A stretch of 37,170 nucleotides of DNA from Campylobacteraceae bacterium (lineage in GTDB: Bacteria; Campylobacterota; Campylobacteria; Campylobacterales; BB28): NCBI GenBank assembly GCA_016744535.1, contig JADGEE010000020.1, positions 1 through 37,170 of the forward strand, given 5' to 3'. Shown here piece by piece: positions 31,973-37,170 of the stretch. Every line of letters begins with the position of its first letter. Within the stretch, counting starts at the first letter, position 1. The notes beneath the pieces are model-generated. The model did no database searches, had not been told where the DNA came from, and worked only from the letters and a program-made list of their open reading frames with translations. Made by a program: the position numbers and the translations under genes.

Positions 31973-32641
31973 ATGAAAAAAACTTTATTAAGTTTACTGG
32001 TAAGTGGATTTTTATTAAGTGGATGGGCAGTTAGTGAGAATCTTTTAACAGTTGTGCAAGGTGAGAATGTTTGCACCATAAATAATGGTTATATGGTAGC
32101 TACTCATACAATGGGTGAAGCATCTGTTTCAAATGGTTTAATATACTTTAGAACTCTAACACCTTTTCCTCTATCAATTTACTATAAAGCTCCTACTAAC
32201 TATAGAGTTGTAAATAGAACAATAGACTTAAACTCTTTTCAATTACCAAATACCAATTATAAATTTTTCTTAGAAATTTCTTCTGTATTAGCTACTGGTG
32301 AAGCTTTTTATGTAAAGGGAAATGGAGAGTGTTATCTTGCTTATTTTCCAAAAATAGATGGGCTTAATAGTGATGGTGGAGAAGTTGAAAATGATATTAG
32401 TAGTGAAATAGAAACAGAAGATAACATTGAAGAATTTAATGAAAAAGATGTAAAACTTTTAACAAAAGATGAGTTTGATAATTTAGGTAGTGGTTGGCAT
32501 TTAATTGGAACAGGTGTAAGCATAAATGATATAAGTATATTTGGAGAATCAAAAAATACTATTTGGACATTTGAAAATAATAGTTGGATTAATAATGTAA
32601 AAGAGATAAAACCTCTACAGGGGTTTTGGATAAAGAAATAA
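31973..32641 (+). CDS. Secreted protein A with shared C-terminal domain
   Basis: The 222-residue protein has a signal peptide (MKKTLLSLLVSGFLLSGWAV). The middle (about 20-150) is beta-rich with two cysteines (GENVCTINN, NGECYLAYF). The last 65 residues (from 32444) are 58/65 identical to the end of the protein at 33075, with GSGWHLIGTG, IWTFENNSW and PLQGFWIKK. The 35 bases from AAAAGGATATTT through the first codons are also identical to that gene. The C-terminal domain resembles GW.LIG-type domains found at the ends of secreted proteins in this phylum, whose function I do not know. The middle is not shared. Confidence 0.75.
   Translation: MKKTLLSLLVSGFLLSGWAVSENLLTVVQGENVCTINNGYMVATHTMGEASVSNGLIYFRTLTPFPLSIYYKAPTNYRVVNRTIDLNSFQLPNTNYKFFLEISSVLATGEAFYVKGNGECYLAYFPKIDGLNSDGGEVENDISSEIETEDNIEEFNEKDVKLLTKDEFDNLGSGWHLIGTGVSINDISIFGESKNTIWTFENNSWINNVKEIKPLQGFWIKK
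32444..32638 (+). repeat. Copy 1 of a 65-codon C-terminal domain module
   Basis: Its partner is at 33903-34097. Only 7 of 65 residues differ (for example V/A, S/T, K/R), and several base changes are silent. The module begins at LTKDEFDNLGSGWHL and runs to the stop. Confidence 0.85.
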
Positions 32642-32683
32642 ATTTTTATCTCTTTTCTTCTTTAAATTTTAAAGGATAAAACA

Positions 32684-32854
32684 ATGCAAACTTTAGATAT
32701 AAAAATTGAATTACAAGATGGTATTTTTGATAAACTTATAAATGCTTTAAACTCTTTTAATGGGTTAGAAATAAAAGAGATTAAACAAAATAAATTATTA
32801 AAAAAAGGAAAATTAAAAACAAGAAATGCTTATGACTTGTTAAAAGAATTATAA
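32684..32854 (+). CDS. Small antitoxin-like protein
   Basis: A 56-residue open frame with AAAGGA before its ATG reads MQTLDIKIELQDGIFDKLIN, then LNSFNGLEIKEIK, and ends NAYDLLKEL. A short beta strand followed by helices and a basic stretch is what small antitoxins of RelE/ParE-type pairs look like. The next frame starts one base after its stop. I infer the role from size and arrangement; there is no clear family match. Confidence 0.5.
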   Translation: MQTLDIKIELQDGIFDKLINALNSFNGLEIKEIKQNKLLKKGKLKTRNAYDLLKEL

Positions 32855-32855
32855 A

Positions 32856-32912
32856 ATGAGAATTGAGACAATAGATTATTTTGAAAAAAATATAATAGCA
32901 AAAAACCAATAG
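32856..32912 (+). pseudogene. Truncated toxin-like remnant (18 codons)
   Basis: An ATG one base after the antitoxin-like stop begins MRIETIDYFEKNII, similar to the opening of RelE/ParE toxins ('i..t..FeK.lk'). It stops after 18 codons, and no toxin-like continuation is seen in the other frames before 33000. This fits a decayed toxin-antitoxin pair in which only the antitoxin remains open. Confidence 0.4.
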
Positions 32913-32940
32913 TAAACCGACCGACCAAAGTTTATTTACT
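32911..32940. promoter_or_regulatory. Candidate operator-like site around CCGACCGACC
   Basis: CCGACCGACC (32917-32926) is unusually GC-rich for this region and sits between AGTAAA (32911-32916) and TTTACT (32935-32940), which are inverted. Tandem ACCGACCG half-sites are known from some TetR-family operators, but there is no TetR gene here and the symmetrical second half is missing. Confidence 0.25.
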
Positions 32941-33074
32941 ATCGCTTCTTTCAAATTTAAGTCTATCTAAGAAGTATGTAAAAGTTGTGATATTTTGAAA
33001 TTTATAAAAAATTTGTATTAAATTTTTAACTAAGTTACTATTTTACACACTTTTTAGATTTTAAAAGGATATTT

Positions 33075-34100
33075 ATGAAAAAAACTTTATTAAGTTTGGT
33101 GGTAAGTGGTTTTTTAATTGGTGCAATAGCAAATGAGAACGATATAGAAGTAGAAAATAAAGTTTTAAAAGAGAGGTTAAATAGTTTAGTTAATACTTCT
33201 AATAAAAGAGACATAAATATAAACTCAAAAGTTAATATTGAAAAATCATTAAATGAGTTTACTAAAAATACTATTAACAAAAGAAATTTTACTGATTATA
33301 ATCCAAATAAAAATGTAATGGAAAAAATATTAGGTAAATATAAAGTTAATTATAAGATTGGAAGTAGTTATTCTGAAAAATATTTAATAATAAATAAAAC
33401 AGAGTTATCAGATGAATATGGGTATGAAAATATGGGTACACATGGTTTCTATGAAACTTCTGATAATTTATTACTATGTCGTTATGATAATAAAGAATCT
33501 ACAGGATATGATTATATTTGTTTAGGAAACTCTTCTTTGGGGAATGATTATACTAGTTGGTATTACTTTAACTTAAATGAAAATTCAATTAATGGAAAAT
33601 ATTATATTGGAAATGGTAATAACGCTGCTAAGGCTATGACATATGGTATAGATTATACAATGACAGGAACTAAGTTAGAAAATTATAATGATACAGTTAC
33701 AATAAATAGTGATTATATTTATACAAGTGAAGATATGAATAATGCAAAATCAACACAAAAAGAAGAATGTAAGACTAATCCTGAAAGTTGTGGAATAGAA
33801 ATAGTAGAGTGTAAAGATAATAACATAGATACAACTTTTATTACGACAGCAACACCTCCTACTTTACCATCTACTACAAATGATTTAACGAATATAAAAG
33901 ATGTAGATGTAAAATTTTTAACAAAAGATGAATTTGATAATTTAGGTAGTGGTTGGCATTTAATTGGAACAGGTGCGACTATAAATGATATTAGTATATT
34001 TGGTGAATCAAAAAATACTATTTGGACATTTGAAAACAATAGCTGGATAAAAGATGTGAGAGAAATAAAACCACTTCAAGGTTTTTGGATAAAGAAGTAG
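33075..34100 (+). CDS. Secreted protein B with shared C-terminal domain
   Basis: The 341-residue protein has a signal peptide (MKKTLLSLVVSGFLIGAIA) whose DNA and ribosome site match protein A. The middle (about 20-275) is unrelated to protein A. It has a helical start (KVLKERLNSLVNTSNKRDIN) and a beta-rich part resembling lipocalin-like repeats of short strands (for example EKYLIINKTELSDEYGYEN), with cysteines at LLCRYDNK, YICLGN and two later pairs. The C-terminal 65 residues match protein A. The gene ends 17 bases before addA. Confidence 0.75.
   Translation: MKKTLLSLVVSGFLIGAIANENDIEVENKVLKERLNSLVNTSNKRDININSKVNIEKSLNEFTKNTINKRNFTDYNPNKNVMEKILGKYKVNYKIGSSYSEKYLIINKTELSDEYGYENMGTHGFYETSDNLLLCRYDNKESTGYDYICLGNSSLGNDYTSWYYFNLNENSINGKYYIGNGNNAAKAMTYGIDYTMTGTKLENYNDTVTINSDYIYTSEDMNNAKSTQKEECKTNPESCGIEIVECKDNNIDTTFITTATPPTLPSTTNDLTNIKDVDVKFLTKDEFDNLGSGWHLIGTGATINDISIFGESKNTIWTFENNSWIKDVREIKPLQGFWIKK
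33903..34097 (+). repeat. Copy 2 of the 65-codon C-terminal domain module
   Basis: See copy 1 at 32444-32638. It begins VDVKFLTKDEF and ends in GFWIKK before the stop at 34098-34100. Confidence 0.85.
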
Positions 34101-36850: not shown

Positions 36851-36938
36851 AAAATATAATTTTATTTATCTTTTAGTTACATATTTTGATTTTTTATAAT
36901 AAAATATGGCGTTGCATCCTTTCACAGCTAAATTAATT

Positions 36939-36945
36939 TAAAAAT
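36939..36945. repeat. Left 7-bp target duplication (TAAAAAT)
   Basis: It is identical to 37072-37078 and abuts the left end of the MITE-like element. A/T-only, so some chance of coincidence. Confidence 0.55.
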
Positions 36946-37071
36946 CTGATGTTACGCTAAGTTTTTTAATATATTCCCTATTATAGGTCTTCTTGACATA
37001 TTAACAGTGTATTATTAGATGTTTTGAAAGCCCAAACTATGGATACTCTTGAAAAGTCATCGTAACATCAG
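36946..37071. mobile_element. 126-bp MITE-like element
   Basis: The ends CTGATGTTACG (36946-36956) and CGTAACATCAG (37061-37071) are perfect 11-base inverted repeats; over 20 bases they match at 17. The element is flanked directly by TAAAAAT on both sides. A minus-strand 15-codon frame (MSRRPIIGNILKNLA, 36952-36999) ends in the left repeat and may be a relic of a transposase end. TTGACA at 36993-36998 points outwards. It cannot be a terminator because the arms are about 100 bases apart. The parent insertion sequence family is not identified. Confidence 0.65.
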
Positions 37072-37078
37072 TAAAAAT
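37072..37078. repeat. Right 7-bp target duplication (TAAAAAT)
   Basis: It is the partner of 36939-36945 and directly follows the right inverted repeat. Confidence 0.55.
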
Positions 37079-37116
37079 AAATGGCTTTTTGATTAGCTTT
37101 TTGATAAAATTTGTTT

Positions 37117-37170
37117 ATGAAAAAATACAAAAAATATAAAAGATTAACAACATATCAAAAAGAATTAATT
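37117..37170 (+). CDS. Start of an unknown gene, cut by window end
   Basis: Eighteen codons (MKKYKKYKRLTTYQKELI) are open to the window end. The ribosome site is weak. The basic start and LTTYQKELI vaguely recall a transposase helix-turn-helix head, but too little is visible to say. Confidence 0.35.
   Translation, partial: MKKYKKYKRLTTYQKELI

Follow-up and report, generated by a model that had tools for sequence, protein, structure and literature searches.

A 126-bp MITE in a Campylobacteraceae genome shares its ends with co-resident insertion sequences and with miniature elements of other bacteria

The window, a stretch of 37,170 nucleotides from a Campylobacteraceae bacterium (assembly GCA_016744535.1, contig JADGEE010000020.1), carries a genuine bacterial MITE of 126 bp. 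The element is a new MITE family of a kind already known and is ordinary in function: its length lies within ~70–300 bp, it has terminal inverted repeats and no transposase gene, it occurs in several dispersed copies with target-site duplications, and it has its ends in common with an autonomous-type element of the same genome, the transposase of which is probably damaged. Judging from its anatomy and from what is known of the family concerned, the MITE is very probably mobilised in trans by the IS701/IS4-like DDE transposase of a ~1.1-kb insertion sequence, the ends serving as recognition sites and the target being cut with a 7-bp stagger.

The 126 bp occupy positions 36946–37071 and have TAAAAAT on either side (36939–36945 and 37072–37078). 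The ends, CTGATGTTACG at 36946–36956 and CGTAACATCAG at 37061–37071, form a perfect 11-bp inverted repeat, and the 20-bp arms are complementary at 17 of 20 positions (85%). The initial annotation had described a MITE-like element with perfect 11-base ends and a 7-base repeat, and its coordinates, length and arm matches were all reproduced. The features of this region are, in order:

36908..36945, + strand: IS-A, the first ~38 bp of a putative IS1-like insertion sequence, truncated at the MITE; dispersed copies at C86, C168, C4 and C63
36939..36945, no strand: left 7-bp direct repeat TAAAAAT, also within the IS-A end sequence; uninterrupted IS-A copies read TTTAAAAATATAAG
36946..37071, + strand: the 126-bp MITE, matching the consensus of six full-length copies
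36946..36965, + strand: left terminal inverted repeat, outer 11 bp perfect, 17/20 overall
36993..36998, + strand: TTGACA hexamer within the MITE, without an acceptable -10 at 16–18 bp
37052..37071, - strand: right terminal inverted repeat, final 11 bp perfect, 17/20 overall
37072..37078, no strand: right 7-bp direct repeat TAAAAAT, also within the IS-B end sequence; uninterrupted IS-B copies read GCTAAAAATAAATGG
37072..37170, + strand: 5' part of IS-B without its outer 18 bp, with an ORF that runs from the ATG at 37117 off the contig end; copies at C168:38373, C160:8165, C78, C144 and C8

Many perfect 11-bp inverted pairs occur in the AT-rich DNA of the window (60 pairs no more than 500 bp apart, against a shuffle mean of 48). 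An exact 7-bp direct repeat flanks just one of the 60, namely the 126-bp element, and none in 30 shuffles. ORFs of at least 20 aa are absent from the element, in agreement with the earlier statement that it carries no transposase. The short relic frame that had also been read there is ruled out as a transposase remnant by this ORF scan and by comparison with transposase relatives, to which the element shows no similarity (best E 0.26). Its interior had no detectable relation to any insertion sequence compared, so derivation of the MITE by internal deletion is unsupported.

Is the element repeated in the host? The host genome (3.02 Mb in 174 contigs) contains six further copies that are 98–99% identical, one of them truncated, which makes seven with the window copy; the latter has the consensus sequence of the six full-length copies. 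The flanks differ at each site and the sites are unrelated to one another. Exact 7-bp duplications border three copies (TTACTTA at C153, TTAGTAA at C16, TTATTAA at C165), the flanking repeat at C168 matches at 6 of 7 positions, and the copies at C73 and C40, two of the seven, have no duplication. At C16, the MITE interrupts a reading frame, with a stop immediately after its left end; when the flanks are joined through a single TTAGTAA, the frame is continuous and extends for another 26 codons. A Pfam search gave no name for the interrupted frame. The 11-mer CTGATGTTACG itself occurs 20 times in the host genome, compared with once for the reversed control.

The host genome also contains insertion sequences with these ends, as do other genomes. 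One of those in the host is an element of 1121 bp at C60:7997–9117, with ends as in the MITE and an ORF of 347 aa that matches NCBIfam NF049921 (IS701_2) at 224 bits, under the cut-off of 250, and Pfam DDE_5 and DDE_Tnp_1 weakly. Aligned with nine plasmid-borne relatives and the more distant ISMesi2, the C60 transposase is ~20 residues shorter immediately ahead of the catalytic E, where both Y and R of Y(2)R(3)E(6)K are missing; a fragment at C36 of the same genome keeps the Y and R segment. No matching 7-bp repeat borders the C60 insertion sequence. By sequence, its transposase is probably a diverged and damaged member of the NF049921 group that has lost its function, and the MITE may therefore have no working helper today. 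Further fragments of transposase relatives lie at C36, C144, C153 and C118, and fragments of insertion sequences with MITE ends at C153, C37, C118, C36, C2 and C8; with C60 probably damaged and the other copies fragmentary, no intact helper was provable in the host assembly. Insertion sequences of the NF049921 group resemble the window MITE in their CTGATGTTACG-type ends and AT-rich 7-bp duplication and differ from it in that the MITE has no transposase and an unrelated interior. Next to the C60 insertion sequence, C60:6500–8000 carries gyrB-like sequence in several broken frames that ends at the insertion sequence; it has the look of a gyrB pseudogene or else of a chimeric junction.

A second MITE, of 214 bp, is found at C32:10778–10991. 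It has the same 11-bp ends, an exact duplication of TTAATTA and no transposase. Both of its ends resemble the C60 insertion sequence over 26–40 bp and are closer to it than those of the window MITE, and the interiors of the two MITEs are unrelated. Sequence related to the C32 interior is present near C4:3900.

Are such ends peculiar to this lineage? Intact relatives of ~1.1 kb occur in other bacteria with the same ends and 7-bp duplications of the TTAWTAA type. Plasmid insertion sequences of Acinetobacter schindleri, Piscirickettsia salmonis and two Polaromonas are 1099–1148 bp long, have ends of the CTGATGTTACGCA or CTGAYSTTACGCA type and stand between exact 7-bp repeats (TTATTTA, TTATTAA, TTACTAA and TATTTAA). 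We scanned 85,000 species genomes for short elements in which CTGATGTTACG and its complement are 76–136 bases apart and obtained at least 118 stretches; the 80 matches listed came from about ten phyla, with one Sulfurimonas among them. Many of these genomes are metagenome assemblies, and organism names are given as recorded. At least 80 other elements of 101–156 bp thus have the ends of the window MITE, mostly with unrelated interiors: together with the window and C32 elements, the interiors of the matches listed fell into 33 clusters, and the window interior matched none. Among the matches listed, an exact 7-bp repeat borders 33 of 79 testable elements and an exact 8-bp repeat 9 of 79, whereas shuffling the partners left 2 and 1, and the targets have the consensus TTAWTAA. 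Of 21 genomes with short elements, again among the matches listed, 11 contain the transposase family. Complete insertion sequences with the same ends were found in such genomes, including one of 1146 bp in Parabeggiatoa (TCAATAA twice) and one of 1136 bp in Hymenobacter (TTATATA twice); Pseudanabaena has MITEs and a co-resident insertion sequence that share the longer end CTGATGTTACGTGGAA.

The 126-bp MITE was absent from all 398 other genomes of the order and from plasmids and phages, and viral contigs held no element of such shape. When the C60 transposase was first used to scan genomes, it gave no match; two further genomes of the order have transposase relatives, with ATCGTAACATCAG ends. 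The single same-genus genome does not have the element. Its counterparts of the flanks could be located near yajC and tRNA-Phe, and the homologous intergenic DNA is too diverged for an empty site to be found there at base resolution. The initial annotation had held that its reading would be refuted if there were no other copies, no insertion sequence with such ends and no empty site in relatives; the first two are excluded because other copies and end-sharing insertion sequences exist, and an empty site at base resolution did not come to light in a relative. Its proposal of a new non-autonomous family in this lineage holds in that the element is multi-copy and present in this genome only, and fails in that the ends are not special to the lineage (about ten phyla among the matches listed). 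In the literature, the end sequence was matched by chance only, in primer-like strings, and the papers searched contained no MITE family of this lineage.

How would the element move? What is observed is a set of nearly identical copies in different places, some with exact 7-bp duplications, whose ends recur in insertion sequences of this and other genomes that produce a duplication of the same kind. We suggest that the MITE ends would be recognition sites of the DDE transposase from ~1.1-kb insertion sequences with CTGATGTTACG ends. Supplied in trans, the transposase would bind both ends, move the 126-bp unit and join it to an AT-rich TTAWTAA target with a 7-bp stagger, the host repair of which would leave 7-bp direct repeats. 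Because the ends are strictly paired with a 7-bp target, such mobilisation is directly testable.

Comparable pairs are known. MITEAba12 is ~113 bp long, and its ends are identical to those of the co-resident ISAba12, with identity at the ends only; target duplications accompany about 40% of its copies, and fresh transposition has been observed (PMC6382973). MITEAba12 and its helper have the architecture and logic of the window MITE, from which they differ in IS family, in their GGCTTTGTTGCACAAA ends and in their 9-bp duplications. Nezha, a cyanobacterial MITE for which ISNpu3-like elements are the proposed movers in work cited in PMC3049150, is likewise a bacterial MITE with a proposed co-resident mover, and its IS group may be the same.

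To which family does the helper belong? NCBI names the group IS701, and the A. schindleri relative scores 342 bits against NF049921, over the curated cut-off that the C60 transposase misses. IS701 as defined has 4-bp duplications, ends of the form ---YACT-Y, a length of 1400–1550 bp and mostly no Y of YREK (PMC2266710). The helper relatives depart from this definition with a 7-bp duplication, CTGATGTTACG ends, a length of 1.1 kb and Y(2)R(3)E(6)K present; we place them outside IS701 as defined because of its 4-bp duplications and usual lack of the Y. They carry D74, D170, Y271, R274, E278 and K285 with 7-bp duplications, and in these features they resemble the IS4 family, which is defined by D(60-110)D(100-150)E together with Y(2)R(3)E(6)K and by duplications of ~7–13 bp (PMC2266710). 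Their size and ends match no listed IS4 subgroup, and the best NCBIfam match is IS701_2. The ISAba11 group has HHEK in place of YREK and a 5-bp duplication. The helper relatives have YREK and 7-bp duplications; one of them is annotated as 'group ISAba11 transposase'. Solved structures included no relative by sequence.

We tentatively propose, at somewhat less than even confidence, a cross-phylum class of miniature transposons with the near-invariant 11-bp end CTGATGTTACG and a palindromic 7-bp TTAWTAA target. It would be served by one uncurated group of 1.1-kb insertion sequences with YREK and a 7-bp duplication, separate from IS701 in its published definition, with unrelated, genome-specific DNA repeatedly captured between the ends. 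A clean MITE family and end-matching insertion sequences are added to this lineage, and a single short signature at the termini picks out many miniature elements that are otherwise without annotation in about ten phyla among the matches listed, so that such elements can be found by a simple pattern.

Was the window copy inserted where it now stands? Other copies of IS-A (TTTAAAAATATAAG) and IS-B (GCTAAAAATAAATGG) continue through TAAAAAT without interruption, and in both this heptamer sits exactly at the MITE boundary. The window holds only the outer part of IS-A, which appears IS1-like from its short zinc-ribbon-like N-terminus, and only the inner part of IS-B. Because the MITE joins IS-A to IS-B and does not split one unique sequence, the TAAAAAT repeat does not cleanly prove that the copy was inserted at this place; it could have arisen by MITE–MITE recombination, by misassembly or by insertion into a fusion that already existed. 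The chances are about even that the copy was not inserted in situ, and that MITEs lying in IS-A and IS-B at TAAAAAT were joined afterwards by recombination or misassembly through the repeat, which would leave it a MITE all the same. The shared heptamer and the outer-to-inner arrangement speak for such a history, as does the contig, which stops 92 bp beyond the right repeat, within the repeated IS-B. Against it, two independent insertions at the same 7-mer would be required, and an uninterrupted IS-A::MITE or MITE::IS-B parent is absent from the assembly. This doubt leaves the identification as a MITE untouched, since the evidence for it comes from the other copies. Insertion sequences lie at the ends of many contigs, which makes the host genome an IS graveyard; putative IS1-like ends (GGCGTTGCRTCCTTTCACAGCTA...) are scattered at window 36908–36945, C86, C168, C4, C63, C22 and C149.

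The MITE could also have been selected as a promoter or regulatory repeat that drives the downstream gene, a reading we regard as very improbable. The outward TTGACA reported earlier is indeed present at 36993–36998 and faces the ORF at 37117. As a promoter it fails: no usable -10 accompanies it, no predicted promoter uses it, and the number of promoter calls is within the shuffle range. Moreover, the ORF is the 5' end of the multi-copy IS-B, a Pfam search gave no name for its start, and the remaining MITE copies lie at unrelated sites. A promoter for this ORF is ruled out on both counts, and the idea that the element influences a gene starting at 37117 is unsupported because the ORF is part of another insertion sequence and a credible promoter is missing. 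The window copy probably leaves host genes unaffected, and its consequence for the window is small, the neighbouring 'gene' being another mobile element. That the element is a structured RNA or a chance inverted repeat, and not a transposon, can be dismissed: both strands fold better than shuffles (z -3.2 and -3.5), but the inverted ends account for the fold, an Rfam search gave no match, and multiple copies with target duplications at unrelated sites already refute it.

Elsewhere in the window, at 31973–34100, two adjacent genes encode putative secreted proteins with near-identical C-terminal repeats of ~60 aa (LTKDEFDNLGSGWHLIGTG...LQGFWIKK).
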